Source of the DNA: Desulfosarcina alkanivorans | GTDB taxonomy: Bacteria > Desulfobacterota > Desulfobacteria > Desulfobacterales > Desulfosarcinaceae | Length of the DNA stretch: 64,000 bases | NCBI RefSeq assembly: GCF_009688945.1 | Contig: NZ_AP021874.1 | Span: forward strand, 1,426,001 to 1,490,000 | Direction: 5' to 3' | In this document: piece by piece, positions 4,526-32,378 of the stretch | How positions within the stretch are numbered: position 1 is the stretch's first letter | Layout: every line of letters starts with the position of its first letter | Made by a program: the position numbers and the translations under genes | Notes under the pieces: model-generated | Told to the model about the DNA's origin: nothing | The model's database searches: none | Seen by the model: only the letters and a program-made list of their open reading frames with translations

Positions 4526-5690
4526 GGTCGCTCCGCCTTGACTTAATCGTGGTCAAAAAAGCACCGCGAACTACCCGCGGGTAGTACAATGCCGGATAGT
4601 CGTTCAGGCGTTCCGGATCCATATGGTTGGTGGCGTAGGTGATGGCCAGGCCGTTCCCGGTCAGGAAACAATGGGGTTTGGCGGCATAGATCAGCACGCC
4701 TGGGATGGTTTTTTCCGGCGGCAGGTAAAACCGGGTCAAGGCCCCCCAGGGGCCCTGGGGAGAGGCTGCGGTTCTGAACCCCAGGTCGGCGGCACCGAAA
4801 CCAATGGTCTGAATCTGTACGTAGCGATTGAGATGCGGTTCGTGGCAGACGCCGAATTCGCTCTGCGCATCGGCGAACAGAACGGCCGGCCCTGCCTGCA
4901 TCCGGTTTTCCGCGAGCCAACCCGCATCGTCTCCGCACCACCACTGTGGATCCCGCAGGTCTCCGGCAGCGGCATTATTTTCCGGCCAGCGCGCCAGATA
5001 GGCGCGCTGGCCGGAAGCGTCGCAGCCATAGGCATAGACAAATCCGTCCCGGGCCAGGATGCCGCCGGTGCCCGGTATGATGCCAAACCGGGTCGGATCC
5101 CGTTTGGCCCGGAAGCTCCGCCACCGGTCCGGCGTTTCATCCGGATTGTCGACCATCACCGCCTGCCATCCGGTCAAGGCAAACCCCAATGGGTTGGGGG
5201 CGGTGTTGACCGCGGCAAGAAAAATAAGCAGGCGCGTGCCGATGCGAATCCCGTCACCGGGCCAGTACCACGTCGCGCCCCGTTCAGGAAAAAACGACGC
5301 CGGCTCGGCATGCTGCGCCCGTTTCCAGAAAAAAGCCATGCTGGCCCCTGCCGGGTCATATCCCTTCTGGATGCCGATACTGTTGCGGATCATCCCGGCC
5401 TGCCGGCGGCTGCCCTGCCCTTGGGCGTCCACCAGCGTGTCCCCGAACAGCCAGAGAACCCGGCCCTTCCCCAGGTCAACGCTATGGGCATCATCGGCGC
5501 CCATCCACCGGCCATCCTGACGGAAGAGACGCTCGGCCGCCGGCCATGGGCGCACCGATAAACGCGGGGTCGGTTCATCCGCAGCCGGGCCATCACTTCC
5601 CGCACAGGCGGTGCACACCGCCATCATGAACGACAGGAACAGGGCCCGCAGCCTTCCTGCCGGAATCATGGCCCGCCCGCCTGCAGTCAT
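4515..5690 (-). CDS. DUF4185-like exported beta-propeller protein
   Basis: 391 residues from the ATG at 5690; a second ATG at 5669 is also possible. An N-terminal hydrophobic segment ends in CTACAGS, an imperfect lipobox, so it is probably exported and perhaps lipid-anchored. The body carries VLWLFGDTLVD near residue 75, then MIRNSIGI, WYWPGDGI, GPAVLFADAQ and LAITYATNH. This pattern resembles DUF4185, five-bladed glycosidase-like propellers. It starts 2 bases after the penicillin acylase stop and runs into the flavoprotein gene, so the three form one transcription unit. Enzymatic activity is unproven. Confidence 0.65.
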   Translation of the reverse strand: MTAGGRAMIPAGRLRALFLSFMMAVCTACAGSDGPAADEPTPRLSVRPWPAAERLFRQDGRWMGADDAHSVDLGKGRVLWLFGDTLVDAQGQGSRRQAGMIRNSIGIQKGYDPAGASMAFFWKRAQHAEPASFFPERGATWYWPGDGIRIGTRLLIFLAAVNTAPNPLGFALTGWQAVMVDNPDETPDRWRSFRAKRDPTRFGIIPGTGGILARDGFVYAYGCDASGQRAYLARWPENNAAAGDLRDPQWWCGDDAGWLAENRMQAGPAVLFADAQSEFGVCHEPHLNRYVQIQTIGFGAADLGFRTAASPQGPWGALTRFYLPPEKTIPGVLIYAAKPHCFLTGNGLAITYATNHMDPERLNDYPALYYPRVVRGAFLTTIKSRRSDHVP

Positions 5691-5692
5691 GA

Positions 5693-8098
5693 TCAGGGCG
5701 CCGCCGCCCGGGGCGTCAAGGTCAGCACGGATCGTGCGTGCCCGTTGATCTCGCGATCACTGAACCACCAGTACATCTTGCGGCCGTCCATGAATGCCGC
5801 CACCTGGTCCTTGGCATGGGGGTGGAACACCCGACCGGCCACCCCGCCGGAGATCACCGCCAGCACCTTGTCCTCGTCGGCCAGGTCGGCAACCATGCGC
5901 AGGGCTGCGGAGACGCTTACCGAATACGGGTCATCGTATTCATATCTTCCCCGGTAGAGCGCCTCCACGGACCCGGATGCCGGATGCGTCCCTGCGCCCA
6001 GAAACCCCTTGCCGAATCCGTTTCGACGAATGGGACTGACGAACGTGTGCCGGTGCACGTTTCCCCACTGCCAGCGGTCCGGATGGCTTCCCAGGGAGGC
6101 CGACAGGCCGGCCTGAGCGTCCCTGGCCGCCCGGACCAGGATATCCCGCCTGGTTTCGACCCTCCCCTCGGTGGTCGTGTCATCGAACCAGTGGGCCAGG
6201 GCGTTGGTCAGCACCATCTGCTGAAACCGCTCCTGCCAGAAATACCAGACCTTGAGCATCTTTGCGGCCAGGTCGTCTCCCAGTTCATCGGCGAAGGTCA
6301 GCCAGGCGAAGCGTTCGTAGACGGCATGAAACACGGTGGCGCCCACGGCGTCGATGTCGTCATGCCGGTCCCACTGGTCCAGTATCTCGGCCAGTTCCCG
6401 GGTTTCCGGGCTGCCGTTCAGAACCGCTGCAATGTAGGGCACCAGTTTTTCGGCCATCAGGTTGCGGGTATCCCGCTGGTAATGCCAGTGATCGTCGACG
6501 CTTTTCTGTCCGGGGGCGTCCATCAGCGCCCTGAGCCGCCGGTATCGATAGGAGGGAGACTGGTAGGACGAGTAGTAATAGGGATAATCGTGCGTTACCG
6601 TGTGATGGTTGCAGGTGCCCACCCATCCCTTGTCCGGGTTGTAGGCGTGGGGCATCTGTTCGAAAGGCACAAAGCCGCGCCAGTTGTCACTGCTGTCGGT
6701 CACCGCCAGGGGAACGGTTCCGTCTCCGGCGGAACGAACGGGCAGCCGGCCCGAGACGTGCCAGCCGATGTTGCCGTCCGTATCGGCAAAAACGAAATTC
6801 AGCATGATGACATTGGCCCGGGCCAGCGCACGCCGGATGTCGGCCACATTCCGCGCGCTGATCATCCCGGTGACCCCGATGGCCGGGGCCATGGTTTCAA
6901 GGGGCGCCCACCTGAGGCTCATCACCGTGTCCGTTTCCAATCCCTTGAGCACATCGGATACCACCGGCCCCCGGCGGGTGTATCGCAGGGTCAACGATTC
7001 TTCCCTGAACCCTGATTCAGCATGCTTGTCCCGGATCCTCATGGTTTCCCGGACAACGGTAAACGGAATGGAGCGATCGCCCTCCAGGTAGTGCCCGGGG
7101 TTTTCCGGATCAACCGTTTCCACATACAGGTCCTGCATGTCGCCGTAGGCATTGGTAATTCCGACGGCAACATGCCGGTTGCGAAAAATCGGCATCAACG
7201 GCAGCCCCGGGATGTGAACACCGACGACCCGGCTGTCCGGCGTGAAGAGCCCGGCCGGATACCATGGGCCGGGAAGGATGCGGGTTTCCAGGTGGGGATC
7301 ATTGCAGACGACCGGCATGCCGCCGGCGGACATCCGGGGACCGGCCACCCAGTTGTTGCTGCCCACTTCGAGGGGGCCCGCATCGAGAAAGCCCAGCAGG
7401 GCCGCATCTGTCCGGATATTGCTTGAAGCCGTCGGAGAAGCGGACAGCTTAGCCGGGGGGGGGGGCTCATCATCCGGGTTGATGTTCAACGGGAAAATTT
7501 CTCTGGCCCGCGCTTCCCCGAGCCGTTCCACGAGCATCTGGGCGACAATCTCGGTCTTCAGGTTGGCCGACGTATCCCAGCTCATGTAATACAGAATGGC
7601 CAGGCTGTCGGCAATCGACCACGGTTCCGGTGCCAGACCGGCCAGTTTGAATTCAAGCGGAAAAGAGTCCTGGCCGGTCCTGATGTAGGCATTGATGCCG
7701 TCCACATAATTCTGGAATAACCGACGGGGTTCCGGGGCCAGTATCCTGGCATGGGCGATGGCCTGCCGGTGCAGGCCGAGGGTCCGGTGCCGGATGTCCA
7801 GTTTTCTGGCTTTCTCTCCGGCCAGTTCGCAGATTCGGCCTTCGGCAAAAAGCCGTGTCAGGGTCATCTGGAACAACCGGTCCTGGGCGGTGACATACCC
7901 CAGGGCCCGCATGGCATCATCCATTGTATCGGCATGGATATAGGCCATGCCCTTATCATCCCGAACCACTTTTACGGGGGCATCGATGCCCGCCAGGACC
8001 AGGCTGCCCCCGGTCGGGTAACGGTTGAGTCCGGCACATCCGGCAAACACAGACAAGCTGAGCATCAGCGGCAACCAAAACCGGGCCATCAGGCGCAT
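5693..8098 (-). CDS. Penicillin acylase family (peptidase S45) lipoprotein
   Basis: 801 residues. The signal peptide ends in the lipobox VFAGC, with lipidation predicted at Cys21. The precursor is an Ntn-hydrolase of the S45 family. The N-terminal alpha region has VVRDDKGMAYIHA and GYVTAQDRLFQM. The autocatalytic site is at EVGSNNW, where Ser247 would become the nucleophile of the beta chain. NDPHLE and the GITNAYGDMQDLY segment follow as in the family. Such enzymes cleave amides such as acyl-homoserine lactones or beta-lactam side chains; the substrate here is unknown. AGGAGG precedes the ATG. Confidence 0.88.
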   Translation of the reverse strand: MRLMARFWLPLMLSLSVFAGCAGLNRYPTGGSLVLAGIDAPVKVVRDDKGMAYIHADTMDDAMRALGYVTAQDRLFQMTLTRLFAEGRICELAGEKARKLDIRHRTLGLHRQAIAHARILAPEPRRLFQNYVDGINAYIRTGQDSFPLEFKLAGLAPEPWSIADSLAILYYMSWDTSANLKTEIVAQMLVERLGEARAREIFPLNINPDDEPPPPAKLSASPTASSNIRTDAALLGFLDAGPLEVGSNNWVAGPRMSAGGMPVVCNDPHLETRILPGPWYPAGLFTPDSRVVGVHIPGLPLMPIFRNRHVAVGITNAYGDMQDLYVETVDPENPGHYLEGDRSIPFTVVRETMRIRDKHAESGFREESLTLRYTRRGPVVSDVLKGLETDTVMSLRWAPLETMAPAIGVTGMISARNVADIRRALARANVIMLNFVFADTDGNIGWHVSGRLPVRSAGDGTVPLAVTDSSDNWRGFVPFEQMPHAYNPDKGWVGTCNHHTVTHDYPYYYSSYQSPSYRYRRLRALMDAPGQKSVDDHWHYQRDTRNLMAEKLVPYIAAVLNGSPETRELAEILDQWDRHDDIDAVGATVFHAVYERFAWLTFADELGDDLAAKMLKVWYFWQERFQQMVLTNALAHWFDDTTTEGRVETRRDILVRAARDAQAGLSASLGSHPDRWQWGNVHRHTFVSPIRRNGFGKGFLGAGTHPASGSVEALYRGRYEYDDPYSVSVSAALRMVADLADEDKVLAVISGGVAGRVFHPHAKDQVAAFMDGRKMYWWFSDREINGHARSVLTLTPRAAAP

Positions 8099-11987: not shown

Positions 11988-14106
<2,119 letters not shown>

Positions 14107-23316: not shown

Positions 23317-24105
23317 TCATATTTCCAATATTAGTCCCACCGGACAGTGATCCGATCCAAAGATATCGTTGTCGATGAACGCGTCTTTCAACCATCCCTT
23401 CCGGATGATGTCCTCGGAAACGAAAAAGTAGTCGATGCGCCACCCGGCGTTGGTTTTGCGTGCATTGAAGCGATAAGACCACCATGAGTATTTCACCGTG
23501 TCGGGATATCGGTGACGGAACGTGTCGACGTAGCCCATGCCGACGATGCGGTCCAGCCACCGGCGTTCGACGGGCAGGAAACCGGAGCGTTTGGAATTGG
23601 GCCCGGGGTGCTTCAGGTCGATCTCGTTATGGGCCGTGTTGAAATCACCGGTGACAACCAGGCTTTTACCCTGTTTACGAAGCGCCTCGGCGTAGTCGAA
23701 AAAGGCCTGGTAGAAATCCAGCTTGTATTCGAGGCGCTCGTCGCTCATCTGGCCGTTGGGGAAATAGACGTTAAAAAATGTGAAGGCATCGAATTCCAAT
23801 TCCAGGATGCGACCTTCATCGTCGAACCGGGGGATGCCGATGCCGTGGCGCACCGCATTGGGGGCCATGCGCGAATAGGCGGCCACGCCGCTGTAGCCTT
23901 TCTTCACCGTGGAAAAGGAGAACGCCGCCTGGTAGCCGTCGAGTTCCTTCATGGCCCGGGTCAGCTGAGGCTCCTGGAGCTTGGTTTCCTGAAGGCCGAC
24001 GATGTCCGCATCCAGGCTGCCGATGGATGCCAGGAAATCTTTTTTCATGACGGCCCGGTAGCCGTTGACGTTCCAGGAGACCAGCTTGATGGTTTGTCTG
24101 GGCAA
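23317..24105 (-). CDS. xthA: Exodeoxyribonuclease III
   Basis: 262 residues from a TTG at 24105, chosen because GAGGAGGAGG lies 5-14 bases upstream and the protein then begins PRQTIKLVSWNVNGYR as in the family. Longer in-frame starts would read through the repeat element at 24138-24254. Motifs: LQETKLQ, VYFPNG, VTGDFNTAHNEIDL, and the C-terminal GSDHCPV. It is an AP endonuclease and 3'-5' exonuclease for base excision repair. endonuclease III is encoded just upstream on the same strand, making a BER pair. Confidence 0.92.
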   Translation of the reverse strand: MPRQTIKLVSWNVNGYRAVMKKDFLASIGSLDADIVGLQETKLQEPQLTRAMKELDGYQAAFSFSTVKKGYSGVAAYSRMAPNAVRHGIGIPRFDDEGRILELEFDAFTFFNVYFPNGQMSDERLEYKLDFYQAFFDYAEALRKQGKSLVVTGDFNTAHNEIDLKHPGPNSKRSGFLPVERRWLDRIVGMGYVDTFRHRYPDTVKYSWWSYRFNARKTNAGWRIDYFFVSEDIIRKGWLKDAFIDNDIFGSDHCPVGLILEI

Positions 24106-24137
24106 GGTTGCCTCCTCCTCGTCTCCATTTAAAAATT

Positions 24138-24254
24138 GCATCTTGCGGCCCAGGCCGGCGTTCTCGCCCTTTCCCAATCCTCGACGTAGCACCGCTGCGC
24201 CTGCGGCTGTGAAAACGGCTGCGGCCTTGGCCTGTCGTAAATCCCGCATCGCGG
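24138..24254. repeat. Long hairpin element, copy 2 of an intergenic family
   Basis: Imperfect inverted repeat around AATCCTCGACGTAGCACCGCT. It shares GCATCTT, GGCCC, GGCCGG, AATCCTCGACG, CGCCT and GGCCTTGGCCTG, in the same order and spacing, with the element at 16287-16431. The outermost stem sequences differ. It lies between the nth 3' end and the xthA start, in the 5' leader of xthA. Confidence 0.65.
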
Positions 24255-24405
24255 GGAACCACAATCACCCAATTTTGAATGGCAACGATTGTCTTTTTAA
24301 TTTAGTTAAAAGATAAATTTAATTTAATCAAACGGTTATTGTAAACAGTGTAAGGTTATTCATTACTTTTCTTTGTCTGCATTTATCATCCGGCCGATCA
24401 ACCGG

Positions 24406-25071
24406 TCAGCGGTGGCGGTCCACCCCGATTTGCGGGCACATGTCGGCGACCGGGCAGCGGCTGCAAAAAGGGGAAACGGGCCGGCACAGTACCTGGCCGA
24501 AAGCCACCAGCAGTTCATTGTAGCGCACCCAGTGCCGCCTGGGCAGCTTCTTTCTCAGGGCCAGTTCGGTCTTGTCCGCATTTTTGGTCTTCACGTAGCC
24601 GATGCGGTTGCTGATCCGGTGCACGTGGGTATCCACGCAGATGGCAGGGATTTTGAATCCCTCCACGAGGACCAGGTTGGCGGTCTTGCGGCCCACGCCG
24701 GGCAGGGCGGTGAGTTCCTCCAGGGTATCCGGCACCTTGCCCCCGTAACGGTCCAGCAGCAGGCGGCTGATGGCCAGCAAACGCCTGGCCTTGGTCGGAT
24801 AAAACCCCACCGGATAGATCAGCCGTTCGATTTCCTGCGGCGTCAGCGCAACCATCGTTTCCGGGGTTCGGGCCGCACGCAGCAATCGTCGGGCCGCGAC
24901 GCCGGTCACTTCGTCCTTGGTGCGCAGGGAAAGCAGGGTGGAAACCAGCACCTCAAAGGGGGTGGCGCCCCGGTTGGCGATGAAGGTGATGATGGGGGGG
25001 TCCCACTGGCGATAATTGGATTCGATGGTGGCCACAAAACGGTCGATATCGAGGATGCGCTTTCGGGTCAT
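24406..25071 (-). CDS. nth: Endonuclease III
   Basis: 221 residues. The helix-hairpin-helix LPGVGRKTANLVL carries the catalytic lysine, VDTHVHRISNR carries the catalytic aspartate, and the C-terminal CRPVSPFCSRCPVADMC has the C-x6-C-x2-C-x5-C spacing of the 4Fe-4S cluster. It is a bifunctional DNA glycosylase/AP lyase for oxidised pyrimidines. Slightly longer than E. coli Nth because of an N-terminal extension. It is upstream of xthA on the same strand and divergent from lexA. Confidence 0.93.
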   Translation of the reverse strand: MTRKRILDIDRFVATIESNYRQWDPPIITFIANRGATPFEVLVSTLLSLRTKDEVTGVAARRLLRAARTPETMVALTPQEIERLIYPVGFYPTKARRLLAISRLLLDRYGGKVPDTLEELTALPGVGRKTANLVLVEGFKIPAICVDTHVHRISNRIGYVKTKNADKTELALRKKLPRRHWVRYNELLVAFGQVLCRPVSPFCSRCPVADMCPQIGVDRHR

Positions 25072-25218
25072 GGCAATCGGTTCTTTCCGGATTCATGGGA
25101 GAGACGGTGCATCAGGCAAGAACGGCAACGCAGTGGCATCATACACTCCCGGCCCCGCCAGGTAAAGGCCCAAGGATCGGCGTTTTTGTAAAGCAAAAAA
25201 CGCATATAAAACTTTACA

Positions 25219-25246
25219 TTGACATTTACATATTGCCTTTTATAAT
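25219..25246 (+). promoter_or_regulatory. Sigma70-type promoter of lexA with overlapping direct repeats
   Basis: TTGACA (25219-25224), a 16-base spacer and TATAAT (25241-25246) form a near-consensus promoter 37 bases before the lexA ATG. The heptamer TTTACAT occurs twice, at 25213-25219 and 25225-25231, a 12-base period that brackets the -35 box. This is a candidate operator for LexA or another regulator. A similar TTTTACAT occurs once in the gap between lexA and the DUF72 gene. Confidence 0.6.
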
Positions 25247-25282
25247 AAAAACCACGCAACCATCGAGACATGGAGGGGCAAA

Positions 25283-25915
25283 ATGACACCCGAACTGACA
25301 CCGGGACAGAAACGGCTTTTCGACTATCTGAAAACCGCCATTGAAGGCACCGGGACCGCTCCCAGTCTGCGCCAGGCGGCCGGAGACCTGGGGGTCAGCC
25401 ATGCCGCCGTCTCCCAGGGGTTGAAGCTGCTGGAACAAAAAGGGGTGGTCAAACGCCAGGGCCGCTACAGCCGCACCCTTCACCTGATCGGCCCCACCGG
25501 TGAAACGGCGGCGGCCCAGCGATGGATCGAGGTGCCGGTGGTCGGCCGGGTGACCGCGGGCCTGCCCCTGTACGCCCAGCAGGAGTGGGAAGGCAGCCTG
25601 GTGCTGGACAGTGCCCTGTACCGGGGCCGGCACCTTTTCGCCCTTCGGGTCCAGGGGGATTCCATGCAGGGGGCAGGCATCCTGGACGGGGATATGGCCG
25701 TATGCACGCCGCGCCAGTACGCCGAAAACAACGAAATCGTGGTGGCCCTGATCCACGGGGAGGACGCCACGGTAAAACGGTTTTTTCTCCACCGGGACCA
25801 CGTGGAACTGCGGCCGGAAAACCCCGATTTTCCGGTCATGCGCTACCGTTTCGACGAGGTGCTGGTTCAGGGACGGGTGATCGGGATCCAACGGGGATTA
25901 ACGGGTATCCGATGA
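25283..25915 (+). CDS. lexA: LexA-type SOS repressor
   Basis: 210 residues. A winged helix (SLRQAAGDLGVSHAAVSQGL, residues 28-47) is followed by an S24 autoprotease domain. The cleavage site is Ala92-Gly93 (VTAGLP), the catalytic Ser127 lies in GDSM and Lys165 in ATVKRF. LexA represses DNA-damage genes and cleaves itself when RecA filaments form. The recognition helix differs from the E. coli type, so the operator is probably different too. GGAGGGG precedes the ATG. It is followed by the DUF72, ImuB-like and DnaE2 genes. Confidence 0.92.
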   Translation: MTPELTPGQKRLFDYLKTAIEGTGTAPSLRQAAGDLGVSHAAVSQGLKLLEQKGVVKRQGRYSRTLHLIGPTGETAAAQRWIEVPVVGRVTAGLPLYAQQEWEGSLVLDSALYRGRHLFALRVQGDSMQGAGILDGDMAVCTPRQYAENNEIVVALIHGEDATVKRFFLHRDHVELRPENPDFPVMRYRFDEVLVQGRVIGIQRGLTGIR

Positions 25916-25950
25916 CGCCTCACAAAAAGTCGAAAAATATTTTTTTAATA

Positions 25951-26036
25951 GGGTGTTAAGTTTTACATGTTAAGTGGTCAAGTTAAGGATTTGTATCGAT
26001 CCCCATCCTTTGCTTAACACTTGATCCTAATACCAA
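25951..26036. repeat. Inverted repeat built from GTTAAG/CTTAAC words
   Basis: The left arm (25951-25990) has GTTAAG three times in variants, ending TCAAGTTAAGGAT. The right arm (26005-26036) carries the complement, ATCCTTTGCTTAACACTTGATC. It lies between lexA and the DUF72 gene, directly abutting the latter's start region, and would interrupt or attenuate read-through from the lexA promoter. Confidence 0.55.
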
Positions 26037-26042
26037 TAATTA

Positions 26043-26885
26043 TTGACCGATCGAGAAATAGTGCCCATACATAACAGAAATAACACGTCCCCTTCCATTC
26101 TGGTCGGAACCAGCGGGTACGCCTACAGCGAGTGGGTGGATGCCGGCTTCTACCCGCCGGGCACCGGCACGGCCCGGATGCTGGCCCATTACGCCGGTGT
26201 CTTCCCGGTCAGCGAGATCAACTACACCTGGTACCAGATGCCCAAGGCACCGGCCATGGACCGCATGCGCCGCAGGGCACCGGAAGGGTTTCGCTTTGCC
26301 GCCAAGCTGACCCGCACCCTGACCCATGAGGTCGACGCCAACGGATGGCCGGCCCAGGCCGCCCGCTACCGGGAGGGCATCGCGCCGTTGGTGCAGTCGG
26401 GCCAGCTGCTGGCCGTGCTGGTTCAGCTGCCGCCTTTTTTCCGGCGCACCCCCCCAAACCGCACCTACCTGGCCCGGCTCCTGGACGCCCTTGCCGGCCT
26501 GCCCCTGGCCGTGGAGTTCCGGCATGCCTCCTGGGCCACGGACCGGGTGTTCGCCGGTCTCCACGCACGCCGGGTGGCCCTGGCCTGCGTGGACGCCCCG
26601 GAGCTAAATGACCTGTTCCCGCCGCTGGCCGTGGTCACCAGCCCGGACCTGTTCTACATCCGCTTTCACGGCCGCAATATCAACGGCTGGCGGTCGGCCA
26701 GCATGCAAAAACAGTTCGATTACGACTACAGCGACGACGAACTGGCCCAGTGGTCCCGGACCCGCATCCCCGAAATGGCCCGACAGGCGAAAACCGGCAT
26801 CATTTTTTTCAACAACCACGTCCGCGGTCAGGCGCCGAAGAATGCGCGTGCGCTGATGGCGCAGCTGGCGGAAGAAGATGGATGA
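26043..26885 (+). CDS. DUF72 (YecE-like) protein
   Basis: 280 residues, TIM-barrel DUF72 family: ILVGTSGYAYSEWVDAGFYPPG near the N-terminus, INYTWYQMP, APEGFRFAAKLTRTLTH, LAVEFRHASW, the YIRFHGRNINGW segment and the closing IIFFNNHVRGQAPKNA. The biochemical role of the family is not established. The TTG at 26043 is the first start; GTG at 26061 is equally possible, neither with a strong ribosome site. It lies where an imuA-type gene would be expected in lexA-imuA-imuB-dnaE2 cassettes. Confidence 0.85.
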   Translation: MTDREIVPIHNRNNTSPSILVGTSGYAYSEWVDAGFYPPGTGTARMLAHYAGVFPVSEINYTWYQMPKAPAMDRMRRRAPEGFRFAAKLTRTLTHEVDANGWPAQAARYREGIAPLVQSGQLLAVLVQLPPFFRRTPPNRTYLARLLDALAGLPLAVEFRHASWATDRVFAGLHARRVALACVDAPELNDLFPPLAVVTSPDLFYIRFHGRNINGWRSASMQKQFDYDYSDDELAQWSRTRIPEMARQAKTGIIFFNNHVRGQAPKNARALMAQLAEEDG

Positions 26886-26933
26886 GGGATGACGCGTAAC
26901 GCAGATATCGAATTTTTCACGAAACCGTCAGCT

Positions 26934-28106
26934 ATGGAACGATCCATCATTCACATCAACGTCGCCGACTTCGCCGTGGCCGTGGAGCAGGTACTGGACC
27001 GCCGGCTCGTCGGCCGGCCGGTGATCATCGCCCCGCAAGGGGCCGCCCGGGCCGCGGTGGTCGACATGAGCGAAACGGCCTTCCAGGCCGGGGTGCGAAA
27101 GCACATGCCCCTGAACCGGGCCCTTCGCCGCTGCCGGGACGCCCGGGTGCTGCCGCCGCGCCCGGATCGTTACGGCCAGGCCATGGCCCGGATGCTCGAT
27201 GCCGCCCTCCCCTGCTCTCCCCTGATCGAACCGGGCGACGGGGACGGGCACCTGTTCGTGGACGTCACCGGCAGCAGCCGCCTGCTGGGGCCGCCGGTGG
27301 ACGTGGCCTGGCGGCTGGGCCGCCGGATCCGGCGGGACCTGGGGCTGGCGCCCATCTGGTCGCTGGCCACCAGCAAGCTGATCGCCAAAACCGCCACCCG
27401 GCTGGTCAAACCCCTGGGCGAATACATCGTGGAGCCGGGCGACGAAGCGGCATTTCTGGCGCCCCTGCCCCTCTTTCTGGTGCCCGGCATCGAACGTGCC
27501 GACCTGGATCGATTTAACGACTTCAACATCACCCGGGTCTTTCAGGCCAACGGGCTCACCGCCGATCAGATGCAGATCCTTTTGGGCCACGGGGGAGACG
27601 TTGTCCGCGACCGGCTTCACGGCATCGACCCGTCGCCTGTTCGCCCCGTGGACCAGCCGACGCCGCGGGTCGTCGGCTGCCGGGAATTCGGCGACGACAC
27701 CAACCATCGCCCCCAGGTGGAAGGCAGCCTGTACCGTCTGGTGGAACAGGCCGGCCGGCAGCTGCGATGCCAGTCCCTGGCCGCCCGTCGGATCGGTCTG
27801 GTTCTGGAATACACCGACGGCGTCCGCCGGGTCCGCCAGACCCGTGCCAAACCGGCCACGGCCAATGATTTTTCGCTGTTCACCCATGCCCGGCGGTTGC
27901 TGATCCTGGCATGGACCCGCCGGGTCCGGCTGCGGTGCATGACCCTGGTCTGCGACCGCCTGACTTACCCGCCGGCCCAGCGCCTGCTGTTCGCGTCGGA
28001 GCGCGACATCGCCGAAAAGCAGGACCGGCTGGTGGCGGCCATGGATCGGATCCGCCGCCGCTTCGGCACCGGTGCACTGGCCATGGGACGGACACTGGCG
28101 GCGTAG
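26934..28106 (+). CDS. Catalytically defective Y-family polymerase homologue, ImuB-like
   Basis: 390 residues from the ATG at 26934 (MERSIIHINVADF). Alignable to DinB along the palm, fingers and little finger. The first metal aspartate of DinB (HVDMD) reads HINVA here, with Asn9. The second acidic pair (LDEAYLDVT) reads DGHLFVDVT, close to the DG-L-LDVTG of ImuB proteins. So at least two of three metal ligands are missing and polymerase activity is unlikely. A clamp-binding-like QRLLF lies near the C-terminus before the RIRRRFG tail. It lacks the long C-terminal extension of classical ImuB. Inferred role: mutasome scaffold for DnaE2. Confidence 0.8.
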   Translation: MERSIIHINVADFAVAVEQVLDRRLVGRPVIIAPQGAARAAVVDMSETAFQAGVRKHMPLNRALRRCRDARVLPPRPDRYGQAMARMLDAALPCSPLIEPGDGDGHLFVDVTGSSRLLGPPVDVAWRLGRRIRRDLGLAPIWSLATSKLIAKTATRLVKPLGEYIVEPGDEAAFLAPLPLFLVPGIERADLDRFNDFNITRVFQANGLTADQMQILLGHGGDVVRDRLHGIDPSPVRPVDQPTPRVVGCREFGDDTNHRPQVEGSLYRLVEQAGRQLRCQSLAARRIGLVLEYTDGVRRVRQTRAKPATANDFSLFTHARRLLILAWTRRVRLRCMTLVCDRLTYPPAQRLLFASERDIAEKQDRLVAAMDRIRRRFGTGALAMGRTLAA

Positions 28107-28116
28107 GCCGGAGGCG

Positions 28117-28246
28117 GGACGGCAGACGAGGGACGATAACGCGAACGTGTGAGAACGAAAGGTGCAAGAACAATAACGGGCGTGGGACGCATTCGATCCT
28201 CCCCCGTCGGAGCGAAGCGGTCTTCCATCGTCCATCGGTTCACGGC
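28117..28246. repeat. Possible inverted repeat with GGACGAT/ATCGTCC words
   Basis: Left GACGAGGGACGATAAC (from about 28125) and right TCCATCGTCCATCGG (from about 28223) are loosely complementary. The centre contains GGAGCGAAGCGG, the complement of the CTTCGCTCCG word in the 14.1-kb repeat. The arms match much less well than in the other elements, so this may be a decayed copy. It fills the gap between the ImuB-like and ROK genes. Confidence 0.3.
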
Positions 28247-28292
28247 ATCCCTAGCGATCTTAACAATCTAAACGATAACAACGGATAAAACC

Positions 28293-29207
28293 ATGGCCCA
28301 AAAACACCCCTATCGCCTGGGCATCGACCTGGGCGGCACCAAGATCGAAACCATCCTGCTGGATCCGGCGGGCCGCAGCCTGCTGCGGAAACGCGTGGCC
28401 ACCCCGCGTGATCCGGAGGGAGCCGCCGAATACGAAAAAATCCGGCGTGCCGTGCACACCCTGATCCGGCAAACCCTGGAAAAGGTGCCCCGGGATCGGG
28501 CCTGCACCATTGGCGTGGGCATTCCCGGCACGATCAACAATCGAACCGGCCGGGTCCAGAACGCCAACACCACCGGGCTCATCGGGCACGCCTTCCAGCA
28601 GAACCTGGAGCGGCTGCTGGATCGTCCCATCGCCATGGAAAACGACGCCAACTGCTTCACCCTGGCCGAAGCCCGGCAGGGCGCCGCCAAAGGATATGGT
28701 CTGGTATTCGGCATCATCCTGGGCACCGGCTGCGGTGGCGGCATCAGCGTGGACGGCCGCATCCACACCGGCCGGCACCGCATCGGCGGCGAGTGGGGTC
28801 ATTTCTCCGTGGACCCGGCGGGGACCCGCTGCTACTGCGGCAACCGGGGCTGCGTGGAAACCAAAATCAGCGGGGGCGGGGTGGCCCGATCCTTTTTCGT
28901 GCACACCGGCCGGCGGCTCACCCTGGAGCAGATCACCGACGGTTACCGGCAGGGCGATACCCAGTGTACGGCCGCTTTCAAACAGTTCCTGGACGATTTC
29001 GGCCGCTGCCTGGGAGGCCTGATCTCGGTCCTGGATCCCGATGCGGTCGTGCTGGGCGGCGGGGTCTCCAACATCGACGAACTCTACACCCTGGGAGTGG
29101 AACAGGTGCGCCGCTACGCCTTCCACGAACGGGTGGAGACGCCGATCCTGAAACATCAACTGGGCGATTCGGCCGGCGTGATCGGCGCCGCCTGGATCGG
29201 GAAATGA
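28293..29207 (+). CDS. ROK family sugar kinase
   Basis: 304 residues. N-terminal phosphate loop GIDLGGTKIE, GVGIPGTINNRTGRV, catalytic ENDANCF near residue 118, GTGCGGGISVDGRI, and the ROK zinc motif GGEWGHF plus CYCGNRGCVET. Such enzymes phosphorylate hexoses such as fructose, glucose or N-acetyl sugars; the substrate cannot be read from the sequence. No HTH domain, so it is not a repressor. Its place between the ImuB-like and DnaE2 genes is unexpected and may be fortuitous. Confidence 0.88.
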   Translation: MAQKHPYRLGIDLGGTKIETILLDPAGRSLLRKRVATPRDPEGAAEYEKIRRAVHTLIRQTLEKVPRDRACTIGVGIPGTINNRTGRVQNANTTGLIGHAFQQNLERLLDRPIAMENDANCFTLAEARQGAAKGYGLVFGIILGTGCGGGISVDGRIHTGRHRIGGEWGHFSVDPAGTRCYCGNRGCVETKISGGGVARSFFVHTGRRLTLEQITDGYRQGDTQCTAAFKQFLDDFGRCLGGLISVLDPDAVVLGGGVSNIDELYTLGVEQVRRYAFHERVETPILKHQLGDSAGVIGAAWIGK

Positions 29208-29208
29208 A

Positions 29209-29364
29209 TTAGCTGGCAGCTCGTAGCTGATAGCTCATAGAAAAGGTATTCCATCGATTTTACAGAAGAATAAGCCGTACTCCGTCATTTGGCATTTTTA
29301 TCGCTGCCAGACACCAATGACGGTTCCAACACCTGTCAGCCATCAGCTATGAGCGATCAGCTAA
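29209..29364. repeat. Inverted repeat built from AGCTGATAGCT words, overlapping the dnaE2 start
   Basis: The left arm 29209-29235 and right arm 29338-29364 are 27 bases each and match at about 23 positions as reverse complements. AGCT-containing words are reiterated. The right arm includes the ATG at 29349 and the first five codons of the DnaE2-type gene; the left arm begins just behind the ROK kinase stop. The element therefore separates the ROK and dnaE2 genes and would place the dnaE2 start in a long hairpin. Confidence 0.7.
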
Positions 29365-32300
29365 TTCCCCTCACCGTCCGCTCCCATTACTCCCTCATGC
29401 AGGGCACCGATTCGCCGGCAGCCATCTGCCGGGCGGCCCGGCGCATGGGATACGACCGCCTGGCCCTCACGGACACGGACAACCTCTACGGCCTGTGGCC
29501 GTTTCTGCATGCCTGCCGCGAGGAGGGGATCACCCCCATCGTGGGCGCCGAAATCACCGACCCGAACCACAACCACCGCGCCGTCTGCCTGGCCAGGGAT
29601 GCGGCCGGCTACGCCAACCTGTGCCGACTGATCACCCGGCGACACCGGGACCCGGCATTCGAACTGGCCGTCGCCCTGCCCGGCCTGGCTGACGGCCTGC
29701 TGGTGCTGGTCAACCAGGCCGGCCTGCTGGCAGCCTGGCACCGGGCCGGGGTTCACACGGCCGCGGCCCTGCCCCGGCACCCCCCATCCCCGTTCCACCC
29801 ATTGGTCCGGACGGCCCGGCGGCTGGGCATCCCCGTGGTGGCCACGCCGGGCAGTTTCTTTCTGGAGCCGGACGGGTTTGCCGTGCACCGTCTGTTGCGG
29901 GCCATCGCCGGCAATACGGCCCTGTCCCGGCTGCCCCCCGGCGACACCGCGCCGTCCGATGCCTGGCTGGCCACGCCGGGGGAATATTGCCGGCGGTTCA
30001 ACGGTTGCCGGGAAGCTGTAGAAAATACCATGGGCCTGGCCGACGAATTACGGTTCACCGGCCCCGGTTTCGGCCTGGTCATGCCGCCGTGGCGGGATAA
30101 AAATGGCCGCAGTGCCGACGACTGCCTGCGCCTGGCGGCCTATGCCGGCGCCCGGAAGCGTTACGGCGGTGAACTTGGCGAGGCCGTGGTGGAGCGACTG
30201 GAGCACGAGCTGGCCGTCATCGCCCGCATGGGGTTTTCGGCTTATTTCCTGGTGGTGAAAGAGATCGTCTCGCAGAGCCCGCGGACCTGCGGCCGGGGAT
30301 CGGCGGCCGCCTCCCTGGTGGCCTACAGCCTGGGTATCACCAACGTCTGCCCGGTAAAGCACAACCTCTACTTCGGCCGGTTCCTCAACCCCGGGAGAAG
30401 CGACCCGCCGGACATCGACGTGGATTTTGCCTGGGACGAGCGGGACCCGGTCATCGACGGGGTGCTCGACCGTTTTGCCGGTCATGCGGCCATGGTTGCC
30501 AGCCACATCCGGTTCCAGCCGCGCATGGCCCTGCGGGAAACGGCCAGGGTGTTCGGCATGCCCAATGGCGAAATCGGCCGGATCACCCGGCGCCTGCCCG
30601 GGTTCTGGCACCGGGGGGAACTGGATGCCGGCCTGCTGGAAGGTCTGCGAAAGCGCCCGGAAACCCGCCTCCTGGACTTCGTCGAACCCTGGCCGCAGAT
30701 CATGGCCCTGGCCCAGCGGATCATCGGAATCCCGCGCCACCTGTCCGTGCACCCCGGCGGCGTGGTCGTCACCCCGGCTCCCATGGACGGCTATGTCCCC
30801 GTGGAGAGGGCCCCCAAGGGGGTGCCCGTCATCCAGTGGGACAAGGACGGCGCCGAGGACGCCGGCCTGGTGAAGATCGACCTTCTGGGCAACCGCAGCC
30901 TGGGGGTGATCCGGGACGCCGTGGCCAACGTGGCGGCCAACGGCACCACTTTTGATGAGAACCGATGGGAGCCCGAGGATGATCCGGCCACCCGGGAAAC
31001 CGTGGCCCTGGGCCGCACCATGGGCTGTTTTTACATCGAAAGCCCGGCCATGCGGCTGCTGCACCGGAAAGCCGGCAGCGGTGATTTCGATCATCTGGTG
31101 ATCCACTCCTCCATCATCCGGCCGGCGGCCAACGTTTACATCCAGGAGTACCTGCGTCGCCTGCACGGCGGCAGCTGGGACCCCATCCACCCCCTGCTGG
31201 CCGACGTGCTGGACGAAACCTTCGGTATCATGGTTTACCAGGAGGATGTCTCCCGGGCGGCCGTGGCCCTGGCCGGGTTCTCCGATGCCGAGGCCGACGG
31301 CCTGCGCAAAATCATCGCCAAAAAGGACCGGCGGCGGCAATTGGCCGATTTCCGCGAGCGTTTCATGGCCGGGGCCGCTGGCCGGGGCGTATCGACGGAC
31401 CAGGCCGACGCCGTCTGGCAGATGATGATGAGTTTTTCCGGGTACTCTTTCTGCAAGCCCCACAGCGCCTCCTACGCCCGGGTGTCCTTCCAGGCGGCGT
31501 TTCTCAAAACCCACCACCCGGCCGAGTTCATGGCCGCTGTCATCAGCAACCGGGGGGGGTTCTACAGCACCTTTGCCTACGTGTCCGAAGCCCGGCGCAT
31601 GGGGCTGGCCGTCGACCCGCCGGACGTCGCCACCAGCCGGATCCGATGGACGGGCGACGGCCGGCGCCTGCGGGTGGGCCTGATGGCCGTCGGCGGACTG
31701 AGCGAGGCCACCATGGCGACCATTATGGCATGCCGGCAGCGGTCGGAATTCAGGGACCTGACCGATTTTCTGGACCGTGTGCATCCGGATGAAGATGAAG
31801 CCCGGGCATTGATTCACTGCGGCGCCCTGGACGCGCTGGACACCCATCGTTCACGGACCCGCCTGCTGTGGACCCTGGCCGGATGGCAGGCAAACCGGCG
31901 GCGGTCAAGGGGACAGGTGGACCTGTTCTCATCGCGACCTCTCGCGGGGCCTGAAACACCCCCCGCATTTCCACCGGAGGATGCCGCCACGCGCCTGCGC
32001 CGGGAATTCGCCGTCCTGGGATTCCTGTGCCGCCGGCATCCCATCACCCGGTTTGCCCATGTCATCAAGGCCCTGGACACGGTGAAGGCCGACCGGCTTC
32101 CGGGCCTGGTGGGCCGGCGGGTGCGCCTGGCCGCCTGGCTGATCACCGGCAAGGTGGTCCACACCCGCCACGGGGACCCCATGGAATTTCTGACGTTCGA
32201 GGATGAAACCGGCATCGTGGAAACCACCTTCTTCCCTGAGGCCTACCGGCGCTTCTGCCACACCATCGACCGGAACCGGCCTTACCTGCTGGCGGGAAAG

Positions 32301-32378
32301 GTGGAGGCGAACTGGGGTGCCGTGACCCTTACCGTGGATCATGCCCAGATGATACGGCGAAGGGGAAAACCGCCCTGA
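29349..32378 (+). CDS. dnaE2: Error-prone DNA polymerase III alpha subunit, DnaE2/ImuC type
   Basis: 1009 residues. An N-terminal PHP domain (VRSHYSLMQGTDSP, then ALTDTDNLYG, with the PHP histidine replaced) is typical of DnaE2. The C-family palm aspartates are all present: Asp355 and Asp357 in PPDIDVDF and Asp511 in VKIDLLGN. HSSIIRPAAN fits the DnaE2 branch. A clamp motif QVDLF lies near residue 870 and an OB fold ends the protein. So this is an intact polymerase, unlike its ImuB-like partner. The ATG at 29349 lies inside an inverted repeat and lacks a ribosome site; a TTG at 29289 is the only longer start. Confidence 0.9.
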   Translation: MSDQLIPLTVRSHYSLMQGTDSPAAICRAARRMGYDRLALTDTDNLYGLWPFLHACREEGITPIVGAEITDPNHNHRAVCLARDAAGYANLCRLITRRHRDPAFELAVALPGLADGLLVLVNQAGLLAAWHRAGVHTAAALPRHPPSPFHPLVRTARRLGIPVVATPGSFFLEPDGFAVHRLLRAIAGNTALSRLPPGDTAPSDAWLATPGEYCRRFNGCREAVENTMGLADELRFTGPGFGLVMPPWRDKNGRSADDCLRLAAYAGARKRYGGELGEAVVERLEHELAVIARMGFSAYFLVVKEIVSQSPRTCGRGSAAASLVAYSLGITNVCPVKHNLYFGRFLNPGRSDPPDIDVDFAWDERDPVIDGVLDRFAGHAAMVASHIRFQPRMALRETARVFGMPNGEIGRITRRLPGFWHRGELDAGLLEGLRKRPETRLLDFVEPWPQIMALAQRIIGIPRHLSVHPGGVVVTPAPMDGYVPVERAPKGVPVIQWDKDGAEDAGLVKIDLLGNRSLGVIRDAVANVAANGTTFDENRWEPEDDPATRETVALGRTMGCFYIESPAMRLLHRKAGSGDFDHLVIHSSIIRPAANVYIQEYLRRLHGGSWDPIHPLLADVLDETFGIMVYQEDVSRAAVALAGFSDAEADGLRKIIAKKDRRRQLADFRERFMAGAAGRGVSTDQADAVWQMMMSFSGYSFCKPHSASYARVSFQAAFLKTHHPAEFMAAVISNRGGFYSTFAYVSEARRMGLAVDPPDVATSRIRWTGDGRRLRVGLMAVGGLSEATMATIMACRQRSEFRDLTDFLDRVHPDEDEARALIHCGALDALDTHRSRTRLLWTLAGWQANRRRSRGQVDLFSSRPLAGPETPPAFPPEDAATRLRREFAVLGFLCRRHPITRFAHVIKALDTVKADRLPGLVGRRVRLAAWLITGKVVHTRHGDPMEFLTFEDETGIVETTFFPEAYRRFCHTIDRNRPYLLAGKVEANWGAVTLTVDHAQMIRRRGKPP

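Follow-up and report, generated by a model that had tools for sequence, protein, structure and literature searches.

We analysed a 64,000-nt stretch of the Desulfosarcina alkanivorans genome (hereafter the window: positions 1426001-1490000 of NZ_AP021874.1, the single 7.32-Mb contig of assembly GCF_009688945.1), in which a probable SOS cassette reads, on one strand, lexA, DUF72, a catalytically dead Y-family polymerase homologue (iPolY), ROK and a DnaE2-type polymerase gene. An earlier note, made from the sequence, had proposed that this cassette encodes a variant mutasome with DUF72 in the place of imuA. Open reading frames and Pfam profiles confirmed the gene inventory, order and common strand given there for all five genes. 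Its broader interpretation survives in part, since a variant LexA-linked mutasome with DUF72 as a conserved member is what our comparisons favor, while neither DUF72 as a stand-in for ImuA nor ROK as a component was upheld. The features of the locus, in window coordinates, are these:

25213-25231, plus strand: putative LexA operator, TTTACATTGACATTTACAT, two direct TTTACAT repeats with a 12-bp period, perfectly matching TTTACAT-N5-TTTACAT
25219-25246, plus strand: sigma-70-like promoter, by consensus match only (TTGACA at 25219-25224, 16-nt spacer, TATAAT at 25241-25246)
25283-25915, plus strand: lexA, encoding a 210-aa repressor with putative autocleavage residues (Pfam LexA_DNA_bind and Peptidase_S24)
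26061-26885, plus strand: DUF72 gene (PF01904), product modelled as a TIM barrel; GTG start assumed, alternative TTG start at 26043
26934-28106, plus strand: iPolY, predicted catalytically dead Y-family homologue of 390 aa (PF00817)
27978-27992, plus strand: clamp-binding-like motif QRLLF of iPolY, residues 349-353, from the alignment of clade sequences
28014-28103, plus strand: RecA-NT-like C-terminal tail of iPolY, residues 361-390, of which 361-382 were aligned with RecA
28293-29207, plus strand: ROK-family kinase gene (PF00480), read as a late insertion outside the module
29349-32378, plus strand: dnaE2-type polymerase gene, 1009 aa; a longer frame is possible from TTG 29289

The DUF72 product matches PF01904 with an E-value of 1.6e-59 (202 bits against a cut-off of 25.3) and is the sole DUF72 match in the genome. 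iPolY was sought in two genome sets, one of 395 from the phylum and one of 389 from the order, and its neighbourhoods were then compared; many of these genomes are incomplete draft assemblies. In the order sample, 146 genomes, that of the window included, carried iPolY at E <= 1e-60, and loci were taken from 135 of them besides the window's own, leaving out ten genomes with fragmentary matches and a second fragment in another (G708). The clade then comprised 144 loci besides the window, from which exclusion of 21 with too little flanking sequence left 123. A same-strand DUF72 gene precedes iPolY, within 4.2 kb, in 98 of these (at 3.2 kb in L166), so the neighbourhood comparison called for in the note identifies it as a conserved operon member. 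Most of the 123 loci contain the full series lexA-DUF72-iPolY-dnaE2 (93 loci, with dnaE2 matched in two pieces in L294), followed by lexA-iPolY-dnaE2 (19), iPolY-dnaE2 (6), lexA-DUF72-iPolY without adjacent dnaE2 (3) and DUF72-iPolY (2). No more than 50 nt separate the DUF72 stop from the iPolY start in 60 of 100 loci, with overlap of the two genes in 30 of these. At the genome level, DUF72 is present in 130/146 genomes with iPolY versus 50/243 without it (Fisher p 1.5e-42, a statistic that ignores phylogeny), and it is retained in numerous families of the order, in two that belong to the phylum but not to the order (f25 and f103) and in Planctomycetota. Long open frames had suggested DUF72-iPolY gene fusions; at seven loci of this kind, offsets calculated by hand place the genes in different frames, and no fusion was established. 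Another genome of the same genus (G658) carries two lexA-DUF72-iPolY-dnaE2 cassettes (L063 and L086), and four loci of one family (f26; L040, L042, L043 and L044) contain iPolY-dnaE2 pairs alongside which neither lexA nor DUF72 was detected.

The lexA product exceeds the cut-off of TIGR00498 (159.7 versus 110.95 bits) and contains an Ala-Gly pair at residues 92-93, which we take to be the cleavage site, as well as Ser127, within GDSM, and Lys165, presumably the catalytic residues; the SOS repressor with an intact cleavage site described earlier is thereby corroborated. Scanning up to 200 nt upstream of lexA for TTTACAT-N5-TTTACAT, with at most two mismatches, retrieved the operator repeat in 94 loci out of 114 (the window counted), whereas 0.9 would be expected from shuffled sequences. 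In the window, this repeat overlaps the -35 box (TTGACA) of the predicted lexA promoter. The 7.3-Mb genome harbors two perfect sites, one at lexA and the other at 5515150, upstream of a gene whose product, by eye, is TPR-like. A wider regulon of this LexA did not emerge: allowing two mismatches yielded 33 sites genome-wide versus 40 for a reversed control pattern, and therefore just the two perfect sites stand out. Likewise rejected was a second LexA operator ahead of DUF72, where the repeat occurs in 2 of 97 loci and the window has, by eye, a half site. Since a second LexA above the cut-off and an S24 domain within a helicase frame are encoded elsewhere in the genome, the cassette LexA may serve its own operon almost alone. 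Together, these data lead us to infer a single, LexA-controlled and self-repressed operon. A literature search, itself weak, turned up no relevant publication on the LexA operators of this group. Outside the window, a 663-aa frame at about 931.8-933.8 kb of the same contig (G000:C1; L209:16-2007) fuses UvrD-helicase, HSDR_N and LexA-type S24 peptidase domains.

iPolY matches PF00817 (E 5.8e-26) and carries N9, G105 and H106 where, by eye against the DinB motif, the three catalytic acids would stand. In the clade alignments, from which short proteins and those with internal stops were excluded (LexA 2, DUF72 2, iPolY 1, DnaE2 6), these residues occur in 130, 133 and 133 of 133 iPolY sequences, respectively, window included. 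The Y-family homologue without catalytic acids reported in the note is thus recovered, and, because the substitutions are nearly fixed in the clade, its predicted inactivity appears to be by descent and not a recent lesion. A QxxLF motif, which we assume to be a clamp-binding motif, is similarly preserved (Q and L each occur in 129 of the 133 sequences, F in 125). Further downstream, the iPolY tail aligns with the N-terminus of the RecA of the same genome (BLOSUM62 score 45, reached by none of 2000 shuffles). This RecA-NT motif, as defined by Timinskas and Venclovas (PMC6511836; here and below, papers are cited for the passages that concern these systems), is conserved over the 133 clade iPolY sequences, including those without DUF72. 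One active Y-family polymerase of the same genome has a similar C-terminal stretch by eye, and a tail of this kind is thus not unique to iPolY. The iPolY protein stops directly after it, at residue 390, and hence has no ImuB-C domain. With its clamp-like and RecA-NT motifs, iPolY supports the proposed dead Y-family scaffold in a LexA-controlled, DnaE2-type mutasome operon.

The polymerase has D357, D359 and D511, presumably the palm catalytic aspartates, which are shared by all 115 sequences of the alignment. It scores over the cut-off of the general DnaE model TIGR00594 and under those of both NCBIfam subfamilies (DnaE1, 633 bits for a cut-off of 1002; DnaE2, 560 for 939), and we therefore use "DnaE2" for a divergent DnaE2-type enzyme; the full DnaE2-type polymerase with palm aspartates previously announced stands in this sense. 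Its PHP domain begins with LTVRSHYS, degenerate with respect to the HxH motif that we would expect there, and the main DnaE of the genome is located elsewhere, at 534195. Whole-genome searches for ImuA matched RecA only, both with NF033429 (45 bits, cut-off 150), a weak test alone given that none of the control genomes reached its cut-off, and, above cut-off, with PF00154. The other two Y-family genes of the genome look active, because they keep the SIDEAYLD/SLDEAFLD motifs. An imuA gene with its own imuB elsewhere, which the note had named as evidence against its proposal, was consequently not found, within the limits of this weak ImuA model. A putative DnaE2B-iPolY-RecA complex, one group of which has an iPolY of the Geobacter bemidjiensis type, has already been predicted in a 2026 survey (PMC12926913), and the claim that the polymerase pair is a new variant is not supported. 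The polymerase part of the cassette is most likely a new member of that predicted type, to which it is matched by composition and phylum.

We also scanned GTDB with patterns derived from cassette DUF72 proteins and inspected the best 80 loci, a set that overlaps the order and phylum sample. Among the 69 of these with at least 53% DUF72 identity, iPolY lies downstream in 66 and all four genes are present in 53; the remainder are one locus at a contig edge and two (L218 and L242) without other cassette genes. No cassette gene was detected at the other 11 of the best 80, from Treponema, Bacteriovoracaceae and Bacillota, with 31-38% identity. Carriers among the 80 include Desulfosarcina, Desulfospira, Desulfobacula, Desulfoprunum, Desulfopila and Desulfogranum.

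Two carriers are Planctomycetota metagenome-assembled genomes, L249 (on a 3.26-Mb contig) and L275 (with LexA 2.6 kb away). Compared with the mean of the rest, their distances are 0.63 and 0.71 versus 0.55 for DUF72, 0.80 and 0.80 versus 0.77 for iPolY, and 0.60 and 0.61 versus 0.57 for DnaE2, that is, 1.04-1.3 times the mean, whereas LexA, at 1.32 and 1.47 versus 0.56, is 2.4-2.6 times as distant. As the distances of the three former proteins stay usual while LexA diverges, DUF72, iPolY and DnaE2 seem to have moved as a set, next to a different LexA. Distances also correlate between DUF72 and iPolY (r 0.80), DUF72 and DnaE2 (0.77), and LexA and iPolY (0.78), with a partial r of 0.55 for DUF72-iPolY given LexA; correlations of this kind also arise from shared inheritance. 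In L275, we additionally noted a SRAP gene after DUF72-iPolY-DnaE2 and a DUF5131 gene before it (5035-5769 and 12070-12819).

A second DUF72 subfamily occurs in another, SOS-like operon, lexA-DnaE-OB-DUF72, in three families of the same order (f144, f112 and f163). Here, a DnaE of about 860-883 aa without an OB domain is followed by a separate OB-fold protein of 137-146 aa and then by DUF72, often only a few bases apart, and this DnaE is apparently split. DnaE, OB and second-type DUF72 stand together in 9 of 13 examined loci (L179, L180, L186-L188, L304 and L306-L308), with lexA also in seven; in the other two, L180 and L187, the contig ends first. At L305, second-type DUF72 is adjoined by the OB gene alone, and neither DnaE nor OB was found at L189, L190 and L303. 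A close relative of the OB-less DnaE (E <= 1e-250) exists in 12 of the 389 order genomes, nine of which are the nine operon genomes. The two DUF72 types fall in different parts of a tree of 58 DUF72 proteins, the second one grouped with a support of 100 (quick IQ-TREE).

The AlphaFold2 model of the cassette DUF72 protein is a TIM barrel with a predicted local distance difference test score (pLDDT) of 92. Foldseek retrieved the DUF72 structures 1vpq and 1ztv, with a TM-score of 0.85 each; weaker matches were to MbnB, to sugar epimerases and to endonuclease IV bound to damaged DNA (1qum; E 4.5e-4, TM-score 0.53). Active sites of TIM barrels lie after the barrel strands, and several of the 70 positions conserved at 97% or more in 96 cassette DUF72s, window included, follow such strands. 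For TM1631, Konc 2013 (PMC3828134) proposed that Tyr47-Tyr48 grip an extra-helical lesion, with use of Arg145 and Arg191. These residues align, with the 12-residue tag counted out by hand, with W57, Y58, R154 and R201, each present in at least 97% of the 96 proteins. Given this conservation of the predicted lesion-contact residues, the DNA-contact hypothesis, itself computed, is compatible with the cassette subfamily; on the model, the fold would fit sugar enzymes too. DUF72 is widespread, being found in 9 of 14 control genomes, Escherichia coli and Bacillus subtilis among them, and its crystal structures date back to 2004.

As for the remaining genes, ROK, unmistakable by PF00480 (E 5.8e-68), was seen in just 2 of the 144 clade loci besides the window (L059 and L060), both of the same genus. 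It is a passenger and was discarded as a component of the module, contrary to its earlier placement within the mutasome. Between ROK and dnaE2, a 35-nt inverted repeat (29206-29240 / 29333-29367, 80% complementary) overlaps the presumed dnaE2 start and is possibly a trace of the ROK insertion. Two base-excision repair genes, nth and xth, occupy window positions 23317-25071 on the minus strand, divergent to the cassette. With nth lying within about 4 kb of the cassette in only 14 of 133 clade loci, the pair is not general to the module and was set aside as part of it.

Collectively, these data favor an SOS-controlled operon encoding a DnaE2B-iPolY-RecA-type translesion mutasome, in which DUF72 is a dedicated fourth protein acting on damaged DNA, a reading that we consider probable, if well short of certain. 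LexA would repress its own promoter along with DUF72, iPolY and DnaE2 by occupying the direct-repeat operator over the -35 box, and RecA filaments formed on damaged DNA would trigger its self-cleavage, thereby opening the operon, a course established for LexA and presumed for this cassette. The dead iPolY would act as a scaffold that contacts the clamp through the QxxLF motif and RecA through the RecA-NT tail, as predicted in print for the type and with both motifs seen here, leaving DNA synthesis to DnaE2, equally as predicted for the DnaE2B-iPolY-RecA type. DUF72 would most likely be a TIM-barrel enzyme resembling endonuclease IV or UV endonuclease; it would bind to the lesion site of damaged or gapped DNA and process this DNA before, during or after bypass. 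Its place in a putative damage-controlled mutasome operon of many sulfate reducers suggests a role on damaged DNA beside the polymerase.

Several observations weigh against this reading. The operator repeat is absent upstream of lexA in 20 of the 114 loci. DUF72 is missing in 25 of the 123 clade loci and in all seven loci of a deeper lexA-iPolY-dnaE2 clade, and the polymerase set can therefore dispense with it; conversely, DUF72-iPolY lacks an adjacent dnaE2 in five of the 123, and some DUF72 exists in 50 of the 243 genomes without iPolY. Cassette-type DUF72 also occurs without iPolY at L184 (identical to L218), at L242, and at L181 and L185, the latter two accompanied by lexA or a piece thereof and drawn from DUF72 loci picked for having no iPolY match. 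On a FastTree of 122 iPolY+DnaE2 rows (95 with and 27 without DUF72), which gave warnings about letter make-up and two joined long branches, DUF72 presence changes 15 times; we read this history as early gain with repeated loss, and the change counts alone fit gain or loss. On the structural side, Foldseek gave weak matches beyond DUF72 itself, sugar epimerases among them, and the 50 matches listed contain no UV endonuclease. The TM1631 proposal was obtained by binding-site comparison and dynamics, that is, computationally, and the same study (Konc 2013, PMC3828134) states that DUF72 crystals do not contain the endonuclease IV metals. In the DUF72 literature we found computed proposals only and no demonstrated catalytic activity for any member.

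Part of this pattern could result from DUF72 being a stand-alone repair enzyme, namely a damage endonuclease co-regulated by the SOS response that shares the promoter of the mutasome but not its work, an explanation that we regard as unlikely yet worth keeping in view. One apparent LexA-controlled promoter serves the operon, so co-regulation alone could hold its genes together; moreover, iPolY loci without DUF72 are common, lexA-DUF72 without iPolY exists (L185), and the repair genes nth and xth are also nearby in the family. Against it, DUF72 accompanies the polymerases beside a different LexA in Planctomycetota, a separate DUF72 subfamily keeps company with DnaE, and DUF72 is enriched by polB2 in a 2025 report (PMC11791011). 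DUF72 distances also track those of iPolY beyond LexA, although inheritance as one operon gives the same signal. Less credible by far is a metabolic or nucleotide-pool TIM-barrel enzyme (e.g., for sugars or damaged nucleotides) that sits in the operon for another reason: the Foldseek matches beyond DUF72 do include epimerases and a dehydroquinase (TM-scores of about 0.4-0.55), but the recurrent association with LexA and polymerases, in PMC11791011 also, and the conserved aromatic pair and arginines proposed as DNA-binding speak against it.

The substitution of DUF72 for ImuA that the note suggested, with DUF72 serving the dead Y-family protein as a RecA-like partner, is most improbable. DUF72 does occupy the imuA place of the operon, and no ImuA was found; yet the modelled fold is a TIM barrel and not a RecA fold, and the RecA-NT motif of iPolY matches the RecA of its own genome and is conserved throughout the 133 clade sequences, irrespective of DUF72. 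We discarded this candidate on both grounds, which make it more likely that RecA rather than DUF72 fills the ImuA role. That DUF72 is a neutral hitch-hiker, inherited vertically with the operon, hardly deserves credence, since scattered changes in its presence are outweighed by its retention in many families of the order, in f25, f103 and Planctomycetota, by 70 highly conserved positions, and by the rarity of ROK, a likely passenger, at other loci.

What is new, as far as the literature was searched, is thus the regular membership of DUF72 in a LexA-linked DnaE2 operon, together with its second association with a DnaE operon. No paper combining DUF72, dnaE2 and lexA was found in open-licence full texts, supplements excluded, and DUF72 was not found in the passages on the mutasome of PMC3765255. 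If the preferred reading of DUF72 as a fourth mutasome protein is true, a bacterial mutagenesis machine gains an enzyme step. More broadly, DUF72 proteins might be a general class that processes lesions in partnership with error-prone polymerases and that became linked, each time independently, to at least three systems (DnaE2-iPolY, lexA-DnaE-OB and, as reported, PolB2), where they would open, trim or hold the damaged strand for DnaE2; we advance this tentatively, as a possibility short of even chances. Translesion synthesis would then gain a nuclease or lesion-handling step of which no description was found in the literature searched. A conserved place in a putative SOS mutasome operon, with two separate DUF72-polymerase associations here and a third in print, makes the function of DUF72 directly testable.

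Among known systems, the solved DUF72 proteins TM1631 (1VPQ) and EF0366 (1VPY/1ZTV) share the fold of the cassette protein, as judged from 1vpq and 1ztv, and the lesion-contact residues predicted for TM1631 are kept in the cassette protein; the function put forward is a computed proposal, presented without mutasome context in the relevant parts of Konc 2013 (PMC3828134). The PolB2-iRadA-PPB2 mutasome (PMC11791011) resembles the cassette in having error-prone polymerase genes around which lexA, in bacteria, and DUF72, in archaea and bacteria and only "to some degree", are enriched; it differs in its B-family polymerase and in that the passages concerned do not describe DUF72 as a fixed operon member. 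The Geobacter lexA-imuB-C-polY operon, reportedly damage-induced and transcribed as a single unit (PMC6511836), is likewise a LexA-led translesion operon of Desulfobacterota, whereas its polymerase is an active PolY with ImuB-C, and neither DnaE2 nor DUF72 is named for it in those passages. With the ImuA-ImuB-DnaE2 mutasome of Mycobacterium, Pseudomonas and Caulobacter, the cassette shares the lexA link, the dead Y-family scaffold with a clamp motif and DnaE2, and it departs from that system by having no detected ImuA, no ImuB-C domain and an additional DUF72. The putative DnaE2B-iPolY-RecA mutasome of the Geobacter bemidjiensis DinB2 type (PMC12926913, PMC6511836) is alike in lacking ImuA and ImuB-C, with the DnaE2-type polymerase adjoining the inactive PolY and the RecA-NT motif residing in iPolY here. 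The word DUF72 is absent from the main text of PMC12926913, to which the search was confined, whereas in most members of the clade described here DUF72 sits between lexA and iPolY.

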